Source: a virus. From it: a DNA stretch of 40,123 bases. Below are positions 128 through 35,386 of this stretch, one piece after another. The position numbers were made by a program, and so were the translations under genes. Every line of letters begins with the position of its first letter. Within the stretch, counting starts at the first letter, position 1. The notes beneath the pieces are model-generated. The model saw only the letters and a list, made by a program, of their open reading frames with translations. It was not told where the DNA came from and ran no database searches. The stretch covers positions 1-40,123 of the IMG/VR virus record IMGVR_UViG_3300032163_000041. One strand, 5' to 3'.

Positions 128-2278
128 CGCAAGGGCAAGGCCGCGCTGTTCGAGGATTGTGGCCTTGGGAAGACAATCCAACTTCTCGAATGGTCGCGGA
201 TCGTTTCCGAACATACAGGCGGGCGCGTCTTGATCCTCGCGCCTCTCGCCGTCGCGCAGCAGACAGTGGGCGAGGGCGTGAAGTTTGGGATTCCATGCGC
301 CTACGTTCGCAAGCCGGGATCGGACGCAGACCTACCGCCGATCACGGTTACGAACTACGAGATGCTCGAACGGTTTGATCCGGCCGTTTTCTCGGGGATT
401 GTGCTGGATGAAAGCTCGATCCTGAAATCCTACGATGGCGCGACGCGGACGGCGATCTTGGAGGCGTTCGGACGGACGCCATATCGGCTGGCGTGTACGG
501 CGACACCGGCACCTAACGATTTCATGGAGCTAGGGAATCATTCGGAGTTTCTTGGAGTCATGCGGCGAACCGAAATGCTCTCGATGTTCTTTGTCCACGA
601 TGGCGGGGAAACGCAGAAATGGAGATTGAAGGGCCACGCCGAAAAAGACTTCTGGCGATGGATGGCGACGTGGGCCGTGACGATGAGATCGCCTGCGGAT
701 CTTGGATACGATGCGTCCGAGTTCGTCCTACCGCCGTTGAAGACAGAGACGATCATCGTGGACGCTGGCGAGTCGGATCACTTGGATCGTGGGCTGCTAT
801 TCCCGTTGCCAGTTTCGACGCTCGAAGAAAGGCGGGCCGCTAGAAAGGCGAGCCTGTCCGAACGAGTCGCCAAGGTCGCGGAGATCGTGAACGGATCGAA
901 GGAGCAATTCTTTGTCTTGTGCAACTTGAACGCCGAGGGCGATGCGCTGGAAGAGTTGATCGGCGACGCGGTGCAAGTCGCTGGCGCGGACACTCTCGCC
1001 GACAAAGAAGAACGGCTAACCGGATTCGCGGAAGGGCGGCATCGAGTCCTGATTTCCAAGAGCAAGATCGCGGGCTTTGGATTGAACCTACAGCGATGCG
1101 CGAACGTGATATTCGCCGGAGTCAACGATAGCTACGAGTCGTACTACCAGACCATCAGGCGGTGTCACCGATTCGGACAGAAGCGGCAAGTCACCGTCCA
1201 TCGAATCATCGGAGAGTCAGAGCAACCCGTGTTAGCCAACATCGAGCGCAAGGAAAAGGAGAACGCGACAATGGCGGATGAGATGTCGAAGAACATGGCC
1301 GAGTACGTCCGGGGAGAGATCCAAGGAACGCACCGCGACGTTGCGCCCTACGAGGTAGGCAAGACAACCGGCGAGGGGTGGACGATGCACTTGGGCGATT
1401 GCGTCGAGACGTTGCGGACGATGGAGGCTGATTCGATTGATTACTCGGTCGCGTCCATCCCGTTCGCCAGCCTGTACACCTACAGCGCATCGGATCGGGA
1501 CATGGGCAACAGCAAGGATCACGCGGAGTTCTTCAAGCACTTTGCGTTTCTGGTAGGCGAATGGCTCCGGGTTACGAAGCCGGGGAGGTTGATCTCGGTC
1601 CACGTTACGAATCTGGCGACGGTGAAGGTTCGAGACGGATACATCGGGATCACGGACTTTCGAGGCGACACGATCCGGGCATTTCAAGCGGGCGGCGCGG
1701 TGTTCCATTCCGAGGTCTGTGTCTGGAAAGATCCGGTAACGGCGATGCAGCGGACAAAGGCGAAGGGGCTGTTGTGGATGCAGTTGAAAAAGGATTCGAC
1801 TGCTTCACGGCAAGGAATCCCCGACTACGTTTTGACGTTCCGAAAGGTCGGCGACAACGCAGAGCCGGTCATGCACACGCCGGAAGACTTCCCGGTCGCG
1901 GTCTGGCAGCGCTACGCCTCGCCGGTCTGGTTCGACATAAACGCTTCGGAGACGCTACAGAAACAATCGGCGCGGGAAGATCGAGACGAGCGGCATATCG
2001 CGCCGCTGCAACTCGAAGTGATTCGCCGATGCCTGCAACTCTGGAGCAATCCGAACGATCTGGTTCTTTCTCCGTTCGCGGGGATCGGATCGGAGGGCTA
2101 CGAGGCGATCAAGAACGGGCGGCGGTTTGTTGGAGTTGAACTGAAAGGCTCGTACTACCAGCAGGCGGTTGCGAATCTGCAACGGGCGGAGCGGGATACC
2201 AAGTCCGGCGACTTGTTCGGAGGCGTTGCGACCGAAGCGACCGAAGCGACCGAAGCGACCGAAGCCGTGACGGCATGA
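2..2278 (+). CDS. SNF2-like helicase fused to N4/N6 DNA methyltransferase
   Basis: A 758-residue two-domain enzyme. The N-terminal half is a superfamily 2 helicase: Walker A GLGKT at 54-58, DESS at 136-139, TATP at 166-169, and the arginine-finger motif RRCHRFGQ at 386-393. The C-terminal half is an amino-methyltransferase: catalytic motif SIPF at about 485-488 stands in place of DPPY, and the SAM-binding motif FAGIG at 692-696 lies C-terminal to it, the beta-class order. The SIPF variant is known in phage enzymes of this kind. The start ATG overlaps the stop of the preceding zinc-motif gene across the circle junction (39998), with GGAG seven bases upstream. The likely role is DNA remodelling or replication plus self-methylation; no cognate restriction partner is obvious apart from the HNH protein two genes on. 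The tail ends in four TEA repeats. Confidence 0.88.
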   Translation: MSDYETFLRSKDFAQVETGIKDGYTLSAHLKPFQADVIRWALRKGKAALFEDCGLGKTIQLLEWSRIVSEHTGGRVLILAPLAVAQQTVGEGVKFGIPCAYVRKPGSDADLPPITVTNYEMLERFDPAVFSGIVLDESSILKSYDGATRTAILEAFGRTPYRLACTATPAPNDFMELGNHSEFLGVMRRTEMLSMFFVHDGGETQKWRLKGHAEKDFWRWMATWAVTMRSPADLGYDASEFVLPPLKTETIIVDAGESDHLDRGLLFPLPVSTLEERRAARKASLSERVAKVAEIVNGSKEQFFVLCNLNAEGDALEELIGDAVQVAGADTLADKEERLTGFAEGRHRVLISKSKIAGFGLNLQRCANVIFAGVNDSYESYYQTIRRCHRFGQKRQVTVHRIIGESEQPVLANIERKEKENATMADEMSKNMAEYVRGEIQGTHRDVAPYEVGKTTGEGWTMHLGDCVETLRTMEADSIDYSVASIPFASLYTYSASDRDMGNSKDHAEFFKHFAFLVGEWLRVTKPGRLISVHVTNLATVKVRDGYIGITDFRGDTIRAFQAGGAVFHSEVCVWKDPVTAMQRTKAKGLLWMQLKKDSTASRQGIPDYVLTFRKVGDNAEPVMHTPEDFPVAVWQRYASPVWFDINASETLQKQSAREDRDERHIAPLQLEVIRRCLQLWSNPNDLVLSPFAGIGSEGYEAIKNGRRFVGVELKGSYYQQAVANLQRAERDTKSGDLFGGVATEATEATEATEAVTA
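2228..2263 (+). repeat. 4 x 9-bp tandem repeat (gcgaccgaa)
   Basis: Four perfect copies of gcgaccgaa at the 3' end of the helicase-methyltransferase gene encode a (ATE)4 tail. The copies keep the frame, so copy number could vary without breaking the gene. Confidence 0.9.
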
Positions 2279-2553
2279 GCCGCGAGATCTTGCGCGTGAT
2301 TGAGCTGAAGGCGTGGACGCGCTACGGCCTACCGCCCTCGCGGCCGATCCTGTGGGGCGAAGTACCGCCGGGTAGAGATATTGGCTGTTGGCTTGGAAGG
2401 CCAATCATGGAATTGACGCCACAGCAATCACTCGGCACTTGGATCGACTTTCTCGCGGAACCGAATCCGTGCGCCATCGGCCAGCCCTGCCGAGTTGAAA
2501 GCACGGAATCTTGGGAGTCTCGAATCACGATCAACGGGAGGCGGGCGAGATGA
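2275..2553 (+). CDS. Hypothetical protein (92 aa)
   Basis: The ATG overlaps the stop of the helicase-methyltransferase (ATGA), so the two are translationally coupled. The protein is Trp- and Pro-rich in its first half and has no motif I recognise. It ends in an ATGA overlap with the HNH gene, which makes it a linker gene of the same transcript. Confidence 0.65.
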   Translation: MSREILRVIELKAWTRYGLPPSRPILWGEVPPGRDIGCWLGRPIMELTPQQSLGTWIDFLAEPNPCAIGQPCRVESTESWESRITINGRRAR

Positions 2554-3155
2554 GCGTCAAGGTGGCATCCGAGGCCGAGGCGCGGCGGTACGCCGAAGCT
2601 GCTGGCGCGAAGTTTCCGAAGCCCGTGCCAGTCTTGAAGGTTCGCAAGCCGCTGGCGCGTTCGATGCCGCCGACTCGAAAGACGCCGATCAAGCGGAGTG
2701 CTGCACCGAAGCGGAAGAAGGGGCCGACTGCGCTATCGGAGTTGAAACGCAAGGAGAACGAGAGATGGCCGGGAATCAGGCGAGCGATCTACGACCGAGA
2801 GGGCGCGATCTGTCAGCTTTGCCGTTCGGTCCATGATGCATGGACGGCGCACCACTTGGACAAGAAACGAACCGGATTCGACGCCGAGACGGGGATGGTG
2901 ATGATCGGTCTCGCTACGGGCGGCGGCGGGTTTTCGGGCTGTCACCGGGCGGCGCACAACGATCTGCGGGCGAGCCGATTGAGCCTTGGATGGTCGAACG
3001 CGAAGCGGTACGAGTGCGAGAACAGAGTGCGTTGGCTTGTGTCCGAAGAGTGGCCAGAGCAACTCGCTCTGAACCAGGCGCTCACGGAAGTGCAGCGCGA
3101 GATTGACGCGGGGCGACTGGCCTCGCGGTTGAGGCGGCCAAAAGGAGAGGTGTAA
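2550..3155 (+). CDS. HNH-type endonuclease
   Basis: A 201-residue protein. I start it at the ATG at 2550, which overlaps the previous stop and has GGGAGG upstream; an in-frame ATG at 2511 lies inside the previous gene and lacks a comparable site. The basic N-terminal third is followed by CQLC, then HHLDKK, then GCHRAAHND, the Cys/His spacing of HNH nucleases in which CxxC holds zinc and the HH pair begins the beta-beta-alpha metal finger. Phage HNH enzymes nick DNA in packaging or recombination, or act as homing nucleases. This one lies far from the terminase but two genes from the helicase-methyltransferase, so a DNA-modification or recombination role is possible (inference). Confidence 0.7.
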   Translation: MSVKVASEAEARRYAEAAGAKFPKPVPVLKVRKPLARSMPPTRKTPIKRSAAPKRKKGPTALSELKRKENERWPGIRRAIYDREGAICQLCRSVHDAWTAHHLDKKRTGFDAETGMVMIGLATGGGGFSGCHRAAHNDLRASRLSLGWSNAKRYECENRVRWLVSEEWPEQLALNQALTEVQREIDAGRLASRLRRPKGEV

Positions 3156-3159
3156 CGCA

Positions 3160-3372
3160 ATGGAACGAGACGAGGCGCTTTTGGCATCGCAGAGGATCGG
3201 GGACTTGGTGACTGCGGCACTATGGATCGCAGTTCCGATAACAATCGGGATCATGATCTGCGGAATTATATTAGTGATGGATTGGTCAGAAACGAAAAAA
3301 GTCAAGGCCTTGGGATTAAAAAGGTGTCCGCAATGCTCCGGTAGTTTTTTGCCAAAAGGAGAAACGGAATGA
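3160..3372 (+). CDS. Small membrane protein with a CxxC tail
   Basis: A 70-residue protein. A hydrophobic stretch at about residues 20-41 is a good single membrane helix. The short C-terminal tail carries CPQC, half of a zinc ribbon. The site ggagaggtg lies upstream of the ATG. The 3' part of the gene is noticeably more A/T-rich than its neighbours, which may mark recent acquisition. Function unknown. Confidence 0.6.
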   Translation: MERDEALLASQRIGDLVTAALWIAVPITIGIMICGIILVMDWSETKKVKALGLKRCPQCSGSFLPKGETE

Positions 3373-3431
3373 ACGAGCGCAATAAAACCAAGATGGCAAC
3401 AGTCGCGGAAGCGACAGGAGGAATGGCGTGA
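3369..3431 (+). CDS. Possible 20-residue peptide
   Basis: ATG overlaps the preceding stop (ATGA) and has AAAGGAG upstream. Its own stop overlaps the GTG of the next gene. The reading frame is only 20 codons and may serve to carry ribosomes between neighbours. Supported by context only. Confidence 0.3.
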   Translation: MNERNKTKMATVAEATGGMA

Positions 3432-3703
3432 GCAACAGACAAACGGACAAGGGATGTGCATGGCACAATGGGGAACGCAATGGGAAACCGCCCGTGGAAT
3501 GCGGCAGGGCTTTGGCGGACCATAGCTTTTGTCGGACGCATCAAGAGCGGGCCGAGGTGATCGCGGAGATCGCGGTGCGGAAGTGGCCGATGCTGACGGT
3601 TCGCAAGAAGTCCACAGAGGTACACATGGCCGCATACATGGTCCACGGGGCATGCCGAACGCTGGATGGAAAGGTGCTGTTGGGGGGAGCGCTCGCGGCA
3701 TGA
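3428..3703 (+). CDS. Hypothetical protein with N-terminal Cys/His cluster
   Basis: A 91-residue protein with a GTG start; AGGAGG lies six bases upstream. The first 40 residues hold Cys/His pairs (CAWH, then ECG, then CRTH) spaced like a small zinc-binding module. It ends in an ATGA overlap with the membrane glycosyltransferase gene. Function unknown. Confidence 0.6.
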   Translation: MSNRQTDKGCAWHNGERNGKPPVECGRALADHSFCRTHQERAEVIAEIAVRKWPMLTVRKKSTEVHMAAYMVHGACRTLDGKVLLGGALAA

Positions 3704-4800
3704 ACACCCGCACGGCTTGGGCAGTCGGCTTGATCGGAATGGCATTGGTAGCCGTCCAATCCTTCGGACTCGGGGATGGGCAAGACTTCCGAACGCTGTA
3801 CGATTCGGCGCGGCTTGGCGCATCTCTGTCAATGCGGGGACACTTCACGGGGGATCTGTCCCCTGGCGGTCTGGACGTTCTCTGCATCCCGCCTTTCGGT
3901 CCCGTGTTCCGGGCGTTCGGCCTTTGGACTTTGCCGCTCGGATTCGAGGGGGCGCTGATGTTGTTTCGGATCGCGTGCTTGGGCGCAATCTCACTCCTTG
4001 CCTGGTATTGCAGAAGCCCTTTGCTCTTGATCGTCGCGCCGCTTTGTCCCGAGTACGTCTGGGCGTTGAAGGTCGGGAACATCACGGCGCTACAGGCACC
4101 GTTGATCTGGCTCGCTGTCTCGATGGCGGGGGGCGTGGCATGGCTGCGCATTCCGAAGCCGATACCGGCGGCGATTCTATTCGGCGGGATCTCGGCGCTG
4201 AAACCGTCGCTACTGCCGGTCGGGCTGATATTCCTGTTTCTCGGATGGCGGGCGGTTTTGGCGATGGGCCTCGCGTTCGCCGTCCCGATTGCCCTGTGCC
4301 TCGTTGCGCTACCGGGCGAGACAATGGCGGGATGGTGGGCCGGATTGACCGGGTTGATGTCCAATCCGTTCACGGCCTCCCCGGCGAACGTCTCGATACC
4401 GGGGCTGATGCTCCGGGCGCAGGGCTACCACTTCGGATCGGAGATACCGGCTCATGTCGCAAGTCTGTGCAACTTGGCTGCGGCCGGAATCCTTGGCATC
4501 GGAGCGATTGCCGCTTGGGCCTACGCGGCATCAGGCCCCGCAACCATCGGTGCAGTCTTGGCCTGCGCCGCGTGTCTCGCTGGTCCCGCATCGTGGTATC
4601 ACTACCCGACCATCATGCTCTGCGCGTTGACGTGCGTTGCCACCGCAACCCCATCGGGTATCGCCGCGCTCGTCCTAACGGTCACGGTCATGAACGGCGA
4701 CGGCCATTTGATCGGGACCGGCCTCGCGCCTTGGCCGACACTCGGACTTGCGCTACTCTTCGCCTGCTGGATCTGGATTGCGAGGGAGGAAAGCAAATGA
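3700..4800 (+). CDS. GT87-like polytopic membrane glycosyltransferase
   Basis: A 366-residue protein with about nine to ten hydrophobic helices. The start is the ATG at 3700, which overlaps the previous stop; the open frame extends upstream only in the shadow of that gene. Features recall GT-C glycosyltransferases of family GT87 (DUF2029): an acidic DFxxxY motif after the first helix (D29, F30, Y34), a GN-[IT]xALQ segment at about 126-133, LKPS at 167-170 in a membrane loop, and NVSIPGL at 230-236. The family uses polyprenyl-phosphate sugars to glycosylate envelope polymers on the outer face of the membrane. In a phage it could alter a receptor and exclude competitors, as Gtr proteins do. The specific sugar and target are unknown. 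DUF2029 assignment is from motif memory, not a search. Confidence 0.7.
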   Translation: MNTRTAWAVGLIGMALVAVQSFGLGDGQDFRTLYDSARLGASLSMRGHFTGDLSPGGLDVLCIPPFGPVFRAFGLWTLPLGFEGALMLFRIACLGAISLLAWYCRSPLLLIVAPLCPEYVWALKVGNITALQAPLIWLAVSMAGGVAWLRIPKPIPAAILFGGISALKPSLLPVGLIFLFLGWRAVLAMGLAFAVPIALCLVALPGETMAGWWAGLTGLMSNPFTASPANVSIPGLMLRAQGYHFGSEIPAHVASLCNLAAAGILGIGAIAAWAYAASGPATIGAVLACAACLAGPASWYHYPTIMLCALTCVATATPSGIAALVLTVTVMNGDGHLIGTGLAPWPTLGLALLFACWIWIAREESK

Positions 4801-5051
4801 CCAAGCCGATGGAATTGCGAACCGAAGACGGGCGATTGATCGGTTGTCCAGCAGACACGTTTCACGGATTGTCAGACGTTGAACGAGCCGAAGCGATTGG
4901 ATTTCTGGCGCAACTCGGCGGATATGCATGGCCACCGCAAGGCATTGTCTATACGTCACAGGTAATGCTGGACGCCGAGAAGGTGGCAGCAGCGCTTCGG
5001 ATCACGCGATGGGGGCAGGACGCCGCAGATTCGTTGAGGCCGAGGCCATGA
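4797..5051 (+). CDS. Hypothetical protein (84 aa)
   Basis: Starts with an ATGA overlap after the glycosyltransferase and ends with another. Acidic and soluble, no recognised motif. The coupling suggests it is co-expressed with the glycosyltransferase, but nothing in the sequence shows a joint function. Confidence 0.6.
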   Translation: MTKPMELRTEDGRLIGCPADTFHGLSDVERAEAIGFLAQLGGYAWPPQGIVYTSQVMLDAEKVAAALRITRWGQDAADSLRPRP

Positions 5052-5314
5052 CGCTCCGCGCGGCCAAGAAGAGAAACCGAGCGTTCCTAGCAGTCGCGGT
5101 TGGAATGATCGGGTATGGTGCTGCGGCGGAAATGATGGCGATAGCATCAAGCAGCGAGACTGACAAGGATGGGCAGATGGTCGCTGTAATAAAAAACGCG
5201 GGAGCGGCGATCCGTTTGGCGAGACTACACGTTGGGCGCTCGAAAGATTTGCGCCGCAGGTTACGAGGCGTGGAACGATCGCTTCGCCAGATCATAGCGA
5301 AGGTCAGACGTTGA
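5048..5314 (+). CDS. Small membrane-anchored basic protein (88 aa)
   Basis: Start chosen at the ATGA overlap at 5048. After a short basic N-terminus there is one hydrophobic segment (about residues 13-32), then a polar region and a strongly basic C-terminal helix rich in Arg. The layout suggests a single-pass inner-membrane protein with a cytoplasmic or nucleic-acid-facing tail. Function unknown. Confidence 0.55.
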   Translation: MTLRAAKKRNRAFLAVAVGMIGYGAAAEMMAIASSSETDKDGQMVAVIKNAGAAIRLARLHVGRSKDLRRRLRGVERSLRQIIAKVRR

Positions 5315-6420: not shown

Positions 6421-6891
6421 ATGGCTAAACACAACTTCTCGCGGCAGGGCAAGGTCAAGAAGGGGCCGCTTCACGGCTGCGATCATCGGGATTTGCTGAT
6501 CGTCAAAACATACGAGGCACATCCGATGTGGTCGGATGATGAGGTTGGGAAAGAGATCGGGCTATCAGGCTCCGCTGTCCAGGCGCGACGAACGAGCGCC
6601 CGGTATGTCGCCATGCTGGCCGACCGATACCCGCCGGCCAAGGAGTTCAACGCCCGCCTGTTGCCGAGGGCGAGGGCGAAGTTGATCGCGCTCATCGAAG
6701 CCGAAAACGAGACCGTTGCGTTGAAAGTCTGCGAACGTCTGTTAGGCTCTGACCTATCCCCGACGCATGAAGAAAACAGCGATGCCCAACGTGCCGCAGA
6801 TCGTAGCGCGGTCGCGTTCCTTGGTGGCGTCGAGAGAGTCGAAGAGATTCTCCGAAGGTCCAAGGCTGGGGAGCCTGCGGTGGGAGGATAG
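6421..6891 (+). CDS. Terminase small subunit (probable)
   Basis: A 156-residue protein immediately upstream of the large terminase. Residues about 38-60 (DDEVGKEIGLSGSAVQARR) read as a helix-turn-helix, the usual DNA-recognition element of small terminases, followed by a helical oligomerisation region and an acidic tail. Its 3' end overlaps the large-subunit frame by 125 bp, which is unusual. It would recognise the pac site and load the motor. Assignment rests on the HTH, size and position. Confidence 0.65.
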   Translation: MAKHNFSRQGKVKKGPLHGCDHRDLLIVKTYEAHPMWSDDEVGKEIGLSGSAVQARRTSARYVAMLADRYPPAKEFNARLLPRARAKLIALIEAENETVALKVCERLLGSDLSPTHEENSDAQRAADRSAVAFLGGVERVEEILRRSKAGEPAVGG

Positions 6892-26286: not shown

Positions 26287-26372
26287 TCGTGATTTATTCG
26301 ATTGTCGCGCTACTCGTCACGGCGTTCGCGCTGATGCCGAACGAGCAGCCGCCTTGGAGGCCACCGTTTTGA
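26274..26372 (+). CDS. Second 32-residue membrane peptide
   Basis: ATG at 26274 inside the previous gene. It has one hydrophobic helix at the N-terminus and a Pro-rich end. It is equal in length to its upstream neighbour but oppositely arranged, with the helix first. Together they resemble small holin-type or antiholin-type pairs. Its stop overlaps the TTG of the Thr-rich gene. Confidence 0.45.
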   Translation: MLELIVIYSIVALLVTAFALMPNEQPPWRPPF

Positions 26373-27400
26373 TTCCGACAAATCACTTTTACTTTCGCGT
26401 CTTCCAATCCCATTGGTTCTTTCTGATTGCCGTCTCCCTCATGGCTTGGTTCAATCCGCATGAAGCGAAGCCTGCCGCCACAAACACCCCCACACCGGTT
26501 TCATGCGACGGTACCCTAGTCACCGTAGGAGACGCACTAACTGCTTCCCTAAACGCCCCGGATAACGCCGCAACTACTTATCACTTTCTTGCAGTAGGTC
26601 CTGCTTCATACATAATGCCTTTCGGCGGAAAAGTCGTCGCATGGCGGATCAAACATTCCACCTGTCTCGTTGGGCAAGCAAACACACTGACAATATGGAG
26701 ACTTGTTTCGGGGACAACATATTCTTGCGTCGGTACCGACCAGCAGACAACATCTACTTCGGCAGAATCGGAAACCTTTACCGTTTCAGTGCCCATCAAT
26801 GTTTTATCAGGAGATATAATAGGGATGCAGCGCGTCAATACAGTCAACAACTATGTGGACGGAGGATCACAAGCAGGCGCAAGCCAACAAATCAAGTCCG
26901 ATACAACCCCTGTTGCTTGTATCAATATGAATCTTGCCACAAATAATGCAACACAACGATTACTCAATGTCGTTCTTTGCCAATACTCTACTACATCCAC
27001 GGCAACCGCTACCGCTACCGCCACGTCCACGTCCACGGCAACCGCTACGCATACGTTCACACACACTTCAACGGCGACGTTGACCGATACGGCGACGGCG
27101 AGCGCAACCCACACGTCAACAGCGACGGCGACAAGCACGGCGACTCACACGGCGACGGCGACAAGCACGGCAACGCGAACGGCAACGTCAACCCACACGT
27201 CAACAGCGACGATCACGCGAACATCAACCCGCACGGCCTACCACACGCGAACCGCAACCGCGACGGCGACGGGGCATTGTTGCACGGACACTCCGGTTAC
27301 GAGCGTGACGCCAAGTAGGACGGCGACGCGGACGAAGACGCGAACCTGGACGCGAACGCGGACGCTCACCAAGACGCGAACGCGAACGCCTACGCCATGA
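26369..27400 (+). CDS. Exported Thr-rich repeat protein
   Basis: A 343-residue protein. I choose the TTG at 26369 (TTGA overlap), since it precedes a signal-type helix (FFLIAVSLMAWF, about residues 16-27). Residues about 45-205 are a globular, A/T-richer domain with paired Cys. The rest is a T-A-T/S-T/R-T low-complexity tract, ending TRTRTPTP, of the sort seen in exported linkers of several bacterial phyla. It may be a surface-exposed host-interaction protein. Acquisition from a host gene is likely, given the lower GC of the globular part. Confidence 0.5.
   Translation: MIPTNHFYFRVFQSHWFFLIAVSLMAWFNPHEAKPAATNTPTPVSCDGTLVTVGDALTASLNAPDNAATTYHFLAVGPASYIMPFGGKVVAWRIKHSTCLVGQANTLTIWRLVSGTTYSCVGTDQQTTSTSAESETFTVSVPINVLSGDIIGMQRVNTVNNYVDGGSQAGASQQIKSDTTPVACINMNLATNNATQRLLNVVLCQYSTTSTATATATATSTSTATATHTFTHTSTATLTDTATASATHTSTATATSTATHTATATSTATRTATSTHTSTATITRTSTRTAYHTRTATATATGHCCTDTPVTSVTPSRTATRTKTRTWTRTRTLTKTRTRTPTP
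26998..27398 (+). repeat. Thr-rich codon repeat tract
   Basis: A string of imperfect ACG/ACC/ACA and GCG/GCA/TCA codons. Two 20-nt copies of gcgacggcgacaagcacggc start at 27122 and 27152, a 30-nt period, and a further shorter repeat (cccacacgtcaacagcgacg) appears around 27110 and 27190. In-frame expansion or contraction is expected. Confidence 0.8.
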
Positions 27401-27828
27401 TCGGGATGATCTTGGCGGTCTTGCTTGGCGCGGACGTTCACGCGGCGAGTACCAACACGTTCACGCAGACCGCGACCGAAACAGCAACGGCCACCGTGAC
27501 GGCCACGCATACGACTACGCTGATATTCACGTCCACGTTCTACCCGACGTACACCTTCCAGGACACTTGCCAGCCATGGCCGACCGACACCGCATCGCCT
27601 ACCGTCACGGCAACACAGACGCTGACGATGACGCATACCCGGACGCCGACTCTCGCGCCTCCCCCCGCCGACGCTCACGCTACCTATGACGGCGCGGGAA
27701 CGGGCCTACCAGCGCCTCACGATAGCGATGGGGAAAACCCAAACCGCCGTTGCGAAAACCGCGACAGCACAGGTGCCAGATTGATAGGATCTCCCGTGCC
27801 TCATAACTGGATGCGGGCGACGCCGTGA
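27397..27828 (+). CDS. Second exported Thr-rich protein
   Basis: A 143-residue protein with an ATGA overlap. Residues 1-17 form a signal peptide (MIGMILAVLLGADVHAA). The middle is again Thr-rich; the C-terminal 50 residues are polar and contain an odd Asp/Asn/Arg mixture. It may be a paralogue of the upstream gene's tail. Stop overlaps the lysozyme GTG. Confidence 0.45.
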   Translation: MIGMILAVLLGADVHAASTNTFTQTATETATATVTATHTTTLIFTSTFYPTYTFQDTCQPWPTDTASPTVTATQTLTMTHTRTPTLAPPPADAHATYDGAGTGLPAPHDSDGENPNRRCENRDSTGARLIGSPVPHNWMRATP

Positions 27829-33868: not shown

Positions 33869-34188
33869 ACCAAACGAACCAGCAAGGCGACGTGATCTTC
33901 GTCCGCGAGGCTATCCCCGCAGACGCGAAAGTCAGGCAGTCGAATGTCGTCAGAGAGGGAGAGGGGCATCACGCCCACGTCCTCGTCGGAGACGAGGTCG
34001 AGTTGTTTGAGAAAGACGGCACGATCTACGCCCGCGTCGGACATGGTGGTGCCACCATCGAGCACCAACGGGTCGGCGGCGGGCCGGGCGAACACCGGAC
34101 GCAGACCATCGCGCCTGGAGAGTACAGGACGCCAGGAGTGGTCGAATGGAACCCGTGGGAACAGGAGGCACGCCGTGTCCAGGACTAG
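33865..34188 (+). CDS. GDV/HHAHV-type partner protein
   Basis: A 107-residue beta-rich protein with a GTGA start. It shows QGDVIFVREA at the N-terminus, GEGHHAHVLVGDEVELFEKDG in the middle, then an EHQR, and ends PGEYRTPGVVEWNPWEQEARRVQD. Proteins with this layout (GDV...TGHAH...HEEH...PGxYxVxxQREY) often precede DUF6745-type proteins in bacteria; the pair has no known function. The His cluster looks metal-binding. Overlaps the next gene by 14 bases. Confidence 0.6.
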   Translation: MNQTNQQGDVIFVREAIPADAKVRQSNVVREGEGHHAHVLVGDEVELFEKDGTIYARVGHGGATIEHQRVGGGPGEHRTQTIAPGEYRTPGVVEWNPWEQEARRVQD

Positions 34189-35386
34189 CGGCGTTCCGGC
34201 CGAATACATCGAGGCGTGTACGTATCCCGGTAGGCTCAACGAGGCGGAGGTCCAGACCGCGCTCGAACATTACGTGTCGAGCCTCGGGATCTCGCGGGAG
34301 GTAAGGCGGCTGCGGAGGGGATGGACGGTTGAGGACGACACTAATCTGCGTGCGTGGGTTGGAACGCTGGCGGCAGACGTTTGTGATCTTCTCGACGCCC
34401 GCGACGCCCTCGACGCCCGCGACGCCCTCGACGCCAGCGACGCCCGCGACGCCCTCGCCGCCCGCGCCGCCCGCGCCGCCCGCGCCGCCCTCGACGCCCT
34501 CGACGCCCGCGCCGCCCGCGACGCCCGCGACGCCCGCGACGCCCTCGCCGCCCGCGCCGCCCGCGCCGCCCGCGCCGCCAGCGCCGCCCTCGACGCCCGC
34601 GACGCCCGCGCCGCCCGCGCCGCCCGCGCCGCCAGCGACGCCCTCGCCGCCCGCGACGCCCTCGACGCCCGCGACGCCCGCGACGCCAGCGACGCGCTGG
34701 AACGGTTCGCGCGATGGGCAGTAGCAAAATCTGGCTGGTGGTATTCATTCGATATATCGTGGATTTCGACCACGCACATCGGAGCGCGGCAAACTGGTAA
34801 GATTTTGCCGTGGGCGAGGCACCTCTACGATTCGTTCTTGGTCGGAGCATGGTATTTGATCTGGACCGACAAGGTGATCTATTGGGTGGCGAAGCCGACA
34901 GTCCACAAGACTGCCGAGAGACGCCTGCACAACGATCATGGCCCCGCAATCGTGTCGGACGCAGAGGATCTATATTTCCTCAACGGGGTGCTCGTGGAGC
35001 CGTGGCTGGTCGAGACCCCGGCAGATAAGTTGGACCCGGTGAAGGTAATGGCGTTGGAAAACGTGGACGAGCGGCGAGAGGGAATCCGCAAGGTCGGAAT
35101 AGATCGGATGCTAGAAAAACTGGACGCCCGGATCGTGGACACGTGGAGCTACCAGACCGAGAACGGCGAAGTGCATCCGTACGAACTGTATGCTCTGAAA
35201 CTACCAGGGGCCGAGGCAGAGTCGAAGGCGCTGAAGATGCGGAATCCGTCGCTTGGCGTGTATCACGTCGAGTTTGTCTGGCCAGGAGTCAAGACGTGCC
35301 GTGAGGCGCTGGCTTGGCGCAACACGGGCGGATCGCAGGATAGTAAGGTTCTCGCCGCATGGACGCCGCCTCCGGTGCTGACGTGA
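34175..35386 (+). CDS. DUF6745-like protein with Ala-rich 34-unit repeat
   Basis: A 403-residue protein. Start GTG 34175 with AGGAGG upstream; the frame is open further upstream only in the shadow of the partner gene. An N-terminal helical region is followed by 34 three-residue units D/A-A-R/L/S, then a Trp-rich segment (ARHLYDSFLVGAWYLIW) and a C-terminal domain with RRLHNDHGPAIVSDAEDLYFLNGVLV and then EEN/ERR-like positions (ALENVDERREGIRKVG). That arrangement is typical of DUF6745-type proteins, whose role is unknown. Confidence 0.55.
   Translation: MSRTSGVPAEYIEACTYPGRLNEAEVQTALEHYVSSLGISREVRRLRRGWTVEDDTNLRAWVGTLAADVCDLLDARDALDARDALDASDARDALAARAARAARAALDALDARAARDARDARDALAARAARAARAASAALDARDARAARAARAASDALAARDALDARDARDASDALERFARWAVAKSGWWYSFDISWISTTHIGARQTGKILPWARHLYDSFLVGAWYLIWTDKVIYWVAKPTVHKTAERRLHNDHGPAIVSDAEDLYFLNGVLVEPWLVETPADKLDPVKVMALENVDERREGIRKVGIDRMLEKLDARIVDTWSYQTENGEVHPYELYALKLPGAEAESKALKMRNPSLGVYHVEFVWPGVKTCREALAWRNTGGSQDSKVLAAWTPPPVLT
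34394..34699 (+). repeat. 34 x 9-bp in-frame tandem repeat
   Basis: 34 units of GAC/GCC GCC CGC/CTC/AGC encode D/A-A-R/L/S. Third positions are C in almost every codon, except the final DAL unit which uses GCG and CTG, which implies recent expansion. All six frames are open across it. Confidence 0.92.

Follow-up and report, generated by a model that had tools for sequence, protein, structure and literature searches.

A predicted GT87-type membrane glycosyltransferase in a phage genome record and its possible role in modifying host surface glycans

Introduction

What would a phage do with a lone membrane glycosyltransferase from a family otherwise known from cells, and how firmly can such a protein be assigned to that family? 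The question is raised by an open reading frame (ORF) of 366 codons in an uncultured phage, the IMG/VR virus record IMGVR_UViG_3300032163_000041. The window, i.e., the whole stretch of DNA analyzed here, is this record of 40,123 bases, which may be incomplete. Nearly all of its genes lie on the plus strand, and the set includes genes for terminase, major head protein, neck, tail, tape-measure and replication-initiation proteins as well as a GH25 endolysin.

Results

The ORF is intact, with an ATG at 3700 and a stop codon ending at 4800, i.e., exactly where a reading made from the sequence only had placed a gene, and the neighborhood agrees with the remark in that reading that the gene lies among small genes and away from tail genes. 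To the left are a helicase-methyltransferase fusion gene (2 to 2278) and an HNH endonuclease-like gene (2511 to 3155), and to the right small genes precede the terminase gene at 6767. Because the gene is chained by ATGA overlaps to one gene upstream and two genes downstream (Table 1), these four genes (3428 to 5314) are probably translated together; in Pfam and PHROG searches, the products of the two immediate neighbors have no match. Codon usage trained on confident phage genes favors the annotated frame by +0.16 log units per codon, with the other two frames negative, and the GC3 of the gene, 0.75, equals that of the structural genes of this phage. Hydropathy indicates some ten hydrophobic segments in the protein, the first of which is followed by a polar loop.

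Other features of the record are noted for completeness. A 70-aa ORF upstream of the chain (3160 to 3372) has a single predicted TM helix and then ends in a zinc-ribbon-like CxxC sequence (RCPQCSGSFLP). The fusion gene joins, in a single ORF, a helicase of the SNF2-like type with an N6/N4 DNA methyltransferase; phages of Synechococcus, Methanosarcinales, Alteromonas and Mycobacterium have proteins or pairs of genes with 44 to 57% identity to it. At the methyltransferase C-terminus, 4.2 perfect tandem copies of a 9-base unit (GCGACCGAA; 2228 to 2265) code for ATEATEATE. A second 9-base unit forms a tandem array of 33.7 copies (34393 to 34695), which lies inside the ORF at 34175 to 35386 and gives three-residue repeats such as DAR/DAL/AAR, after which this ORF has a sub-threshold DUF6745 match. 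Assignment of a host via the capsid, terminase and helicase-methyltransferase proteins was abandoned because their relatives occur in phages of very different hosts.

Table 1. Coordinates of the GT87-type gene, its predicted motifs, the overlapping genes and the threonine-rich genes
Feature	Position	Strand	Basis or remark
91-aa gene with Cys/His pairs, upstream	3428..3703	+	Stop overlaps GT87 start (ATGA)
GT87-type GT-C membrane glycosyltransferase (predicted), 366 aa	3700..4800	+	Pfam GT87 above cut-off; hhalign to cellular GT87 proteins; model versus PimE Z 20.9
D29, predicted catalytic base, outer end of TM helix 1 (QDFRTLY)	3784..3786	+	PimE D58
IPPF motif, PPF residues 64-66	3889..3897	+	PimE YPPF; three-way alignments
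G126-N127, GQ-motif counterpart (PimE G162-Q163)	4075..4080	+	Same in 6/6 alignments
K168, predicted lipid-phosphate ligand (PimE K195)	4201..4203	+	Alignments
W299-Y300-H301-Y302, counterpart of PimE W319-x-H321-H322	4594..4605	+	Alignments
84-aa gene, downstream	4797..5051	+	Start overlaps GT87 stop (ATGA)
88-aa gene, one hydrophobic segment	5048..5314	+	Next ATGA-chain link; sub-threshold matches only
Thr-rich, signal-peptide-like protein, candidate O-glycan acceptor (speculative)	26369..27400	+	TTG start after TTGGAGG; 24% Thr
Second Thr-rich protein, candidate acceptor (speculative)	27397..27828	+	Signal-peptide-like start MIGMILAVLLGADVHA-AS; 23% Thr

Pfam GT87 (PF09594) is the sole family matched by the protein; it covers residues 64 to 294 with 28.8 bits (E 1.3e-6; 30.3 bits in the DNA search), the curated cut-off being 25 bits, and nothing was found in PHROGs or NCBIfam. 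Because hydrophobic composition can inflate Pfam-type scores, two extra tests were run. First, hhalign aligned the profiles of the protein and of 22 cellular GT87 proteins with a probability of 90% and an E of 1.5e-6. These relatives were fetched from genomes and themselves score as clear GT87 members in Pfam; two consensus sequences of the family, 259 and 277 aa long, were used as baits only for fetching the real sequences, which then served. Second, against a home-built GT87 profile with composition uncorrected, the protein scored 43.5 bits, and 1,000 local shuffles that roughly preserved hydropathy had a mean of 9.0, an s.d. of 3.9 and a maximum of 32. With composition correction on, this narrow, mostly alphaproteobacterial profile gives the protein no significant score.

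With 16 cellular GT87 proteins supplied as alignment, AlphaFold2 gave a model with a pLDDT of 61.5 and a pTM of 0.63. Foldseek returned nothing significant for this model, and its own top matches were not GT-C enzymes. When the Foldseek candidates were superimposed by VIA-align, PimE, the mycobacterial polyprenyl-phosphate-mannose transferase of GT87, was best (PDB 9dm5; 316 residues, 4.0 Å), followed at Z 18 and more by GPI mannosyltransferase I, ALG3, a chain from a GPI transamidase entry and ALG6, and then, as far down as Z 8.0, by oligosaccharyltransferases and arabinosyltransferases. All chains above Z 8 are GT-C enzymes, and the unrelated ones score 5.7 or less. The model from the single sequence was poor (pLDDT 45), and VIA-align listed no GT-C chain for it; because this model is unreliable, the non-match is not counted against a GT-C fold. 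Conversely, the match to PimE partly restates the alignment and is no independent proof, because it is seen only when GT87 relatives are supplied. A fold search in BFVD gave nothing significant. Three lectins from a search of PDB sequences (E 0.014 to 0.034) were set aside as chance because what they match are hydrophobic segments within soluble proteins.

A polytopic membrane protein of another kind, e.g., a transporter or an exclusion protein, could resemble GT87 by composition alone; score inflation by hydrophobic residues, the silence of the narrow profile under composition correction and the Foldseek top matches outside GT-C all suit this explanation. However, the corrected Pfam score still exceeds the curated cut-off, the score against the GT87 profile is higher than those of all 1,000 shuffles, and the motifs described below occur in the right order along the whole length of the protein. 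That the protein is no glycosyltransferase is, in our judgment, quite improbable. Identity to known GT87 proteins is only 17 to 24% in an alignment of 17 proteins (A4), and the GT87 match is, by these comparisons, real and distant. We consider it highly probable that the protein belongs to GT87 and to the class of membrane GT-C glycosyltransferases.

In PimE, D58 is the base, K195 and H322 are phosphate ligands, and W319 has a supporting function; D58, Y62, Y92, Q163, K195 and W319 are essential, with Q163A or Y92A inactivating the enzyme, and H321 and H322 mutants are weakened (PMC12041525). Counterparts of these residues were placed by six alignments of the phage protein with PimE together with A4. 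In each of the three alignments containing the family, D29 is placed at PimE D58, and D29-F30 is invariant among the 17 proteins of A4; alignments of two to three sequences did not place this end residue. G126 is likewise invariant in A4. K168 is nearly invariant there and falls on K195 in three of the six alignments and one residue off in the rest. W299 corresponds to W319 in all six, H301 to H321 in four and Y302 to H322 in half, and Y62 falls on L33 or Y34. The set of residues essential in PimE is incompletely kept: N127 replaces Q163, and I63 replaces Y92, in a gap-rich stretch that the larger alignments shift. Judged from the residues, both substitutions are genuine differences from PimE and point to another donor, another acceptor or another efficiency. 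Y302, by contrast, is no sign of decay because this residue is nearly invariant among the other aligned GT87 proteins.

The sequence-only reading had proposed a GT-C enzyme like those of GT87 and had made this depend on a catalytic acidic residue. The former is borne out by the Pfam score above the cut-off, the profile match, the motif counterparts and the model compared with PimE, and the latter by D29 at the place of D58. As for the GT-C fold on which that reading had staked its proposal, the model built with the GT87 alignment matches GT-C enzymes, and the single-sequence model matches none.

Relatives in other phages were sought in several ways. With the 366-aa protein as query, tblastn detected no relative among 50,697 phage genomes at E up to 1, and plasmids gave only one chance match at E 8. 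Three cellular GT87 baits retrieved nothing from the 50,697 phage records, and a search of viral contigs with cellular GT87 baits was likewise empty. Peptide scans of IMG/VR viral and genome contigs, which needed exact 8-residue matches and are weak negatives, revealed no relative, and none was found in about 950 bacterial genomes. BLAST against 398 Pseudomonadota and about 300 Chloroflexota/Dormibacterota-group genomes gave no close relative, in a search with no positive control that would miss distant GT87 proteins. A literature search on GT87 or DUF2029 in phages, among open-licence papers, turned up no phage example. On another IMG/VR contig, L033, which is phage-like and 65,636 bases long, an ORF beside a lysozyme-like gene (1165 to 1860, minus strand) encodes a membrane protein that resembles GT87 in having DFPVYYWAA and later GN and YKPYLA. 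It differs in having only 231 aa and no Pfam or significant profile match and, as its likeness is one of motifs only, was rejected as a phage relative. On these searches, the 366-aa protein would be an uncommon and divergent phage representative of a known enzyme family that is otherwise cellular.

The replaced PimE-essential residues and the lack of a relative in other phages by the searches used would also fit a host GT87 gene acquired by chance, whose product is inactive or takes part in general host envelope synthesis with no phage-specific role. By contrast, the open frame, the phage-like codon usage and the coupled, overlapping neighbors speak against recent or decaying cargo, as does the near invariance of Y302 at the H322 position. 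Altogether, we regard acquisition by chance as unlikely.

Discussion

Our data are compatible with a scenario in which a lone, periplasm-facing GT-C enzyme transfers sugar from a host polyprenyl phosphate to a host surface glycan, thereby altering phage adsorption. We propose this chain of events tentatively and, taken as a whole, rate it somewhat short of an even chance. From the mechanism of PimE, we infer the chemistry and orientation: the protein would be embedded in the inner membrane of the host, its active site turned outward, and the polar loop after helix 1, which bears D29, would face outward. A host-made polyprenyl-phosphate sugar would bind, its phosphate held by K168 together with W299/H301/Y302, and D29 would act as the base that deprotonates the acceptor hydroxyl. 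For the further steps, we infer a host donor, a surface-glycan acceptor and an effect on adsorption: the sugar would be placed on a glycan or glycolipid of the host cell envelope during infection, and the altered surface would hamper adsorption of further phage.

Matches to a GT2 donor synthase (PF00535) or a GtrA-type flippase (PF04138) were absent from the record, which may be incomplete, so that the donor would be that of the host; a gtr-type cluster was rejected, GtrA and GtrB both being absent. In phage gtr clusters, the polytopic GtrC adds glucose to the O-antigen and in that way blocks adsorption (PMC3688519; PMC11436027). Because of this gtrABC precedent, a surface glycan and altered adsorption are the most likely purpose of the phage enzyme (PMC3688519; PMC11436027). 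Counting against this role, the gene is not adjacent to surface-glycan or tail genes, and PimE Q163, H322 and Y92 are not conserved. Mannose as the sugar of GT87 is documented here for PimE-type members only. No tyrosine integrase was found in the possibly incomplete record, in a search that covered neither serine recombinases nor repressors; this fits a lytic life without proving it. If the phage is lytic, exclusion would protect the cell during infection only.

The enzyme might instead act on proteins of the phage itself. Two consecutive genes directly before the GH25 endolysin gene encode threonine-rich proteins that stand alone among the 38 listed genes (24% and 23% Thr versus 0 to 9%), and both start with signal-peptide-like stretches; in the first, the last 135 aa are 56% Thr plus Ser. 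All four Thr codons are used, and the bias is therefore not that of one simple repeat. GT-C enzymes of other families, i.e., the PMT enzymes of GT39, glycosylate comparable exported Thr-rich stretches. O-glycosylation of the two proteins after Sec export would make this a lone phage GT-C enzyme acting on phage proteins in a phage-encoded protein O-glycosylation pathway. However, these genes are 22 kb from the GT87 gene and have no genetic link to it, a GT87 member acting on proteins is not documented here, Thr-rich stalks are common among bacterial extracellular proteins, and in the repeat of the first gene a second frame is also open (26977 to 27318, rich in Gly, Asn, Asp and His). The two proteins have no useful homologs, with none found for the first. 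We consider such O-glycosylation very unlikely, and slightly more so its fuller version, in which the enzyme would sugar the two mucin-like proteins to form a glycan coat on the infected cell or virion.

Returning to modification of the host surface, this reading would have a broader consequence. With this gene, and given the searches used, GT87, a cellular family of polyprenyl-phosphate sugar transferases, reaches a phage; one enzyme may then suffice for a phage to alter envelope glycans, with donor and flippase borrowed from the host.

Among known systems, the O-antigen glycosyltransferases of the GtrC type from phages like P22 (gtrABC) are similar in being phage membrane enzymes for which, as for the protein described here, a polyprenyl-phosphate sugar donor and a site of action beyond the inner membrane are expected. 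However, GtrC comes with the GtrA flippase and the GtrB (GT2) donor synthase, which the record lacks. PimE has the GT-C_A fold, with its conserved seven-helix core and juxtamembrane helices, which the model built with the GT87 alignment suggests for the phage protein; its D58, G162, K195, W319 and H321 have counterparts there, but the two are only 12% identical, with Q163, H322 and Y92 replaced, and PIM4, the acceptor of PimE, is peculiar to mycobacteria and their relatives. The GT87 proteins from cells of Alphaproteobacteria and Chloroflexota, L051, L087 and L091 among them, are 17 to 24% identical and differ in having a longer N-terminus and GQN and DYD where the phage protein has GNI and HYP; they share with it the Pfam family, the invariant D29-F30, G126, P169 and P296, and the nearly invariant K168 and Y302.
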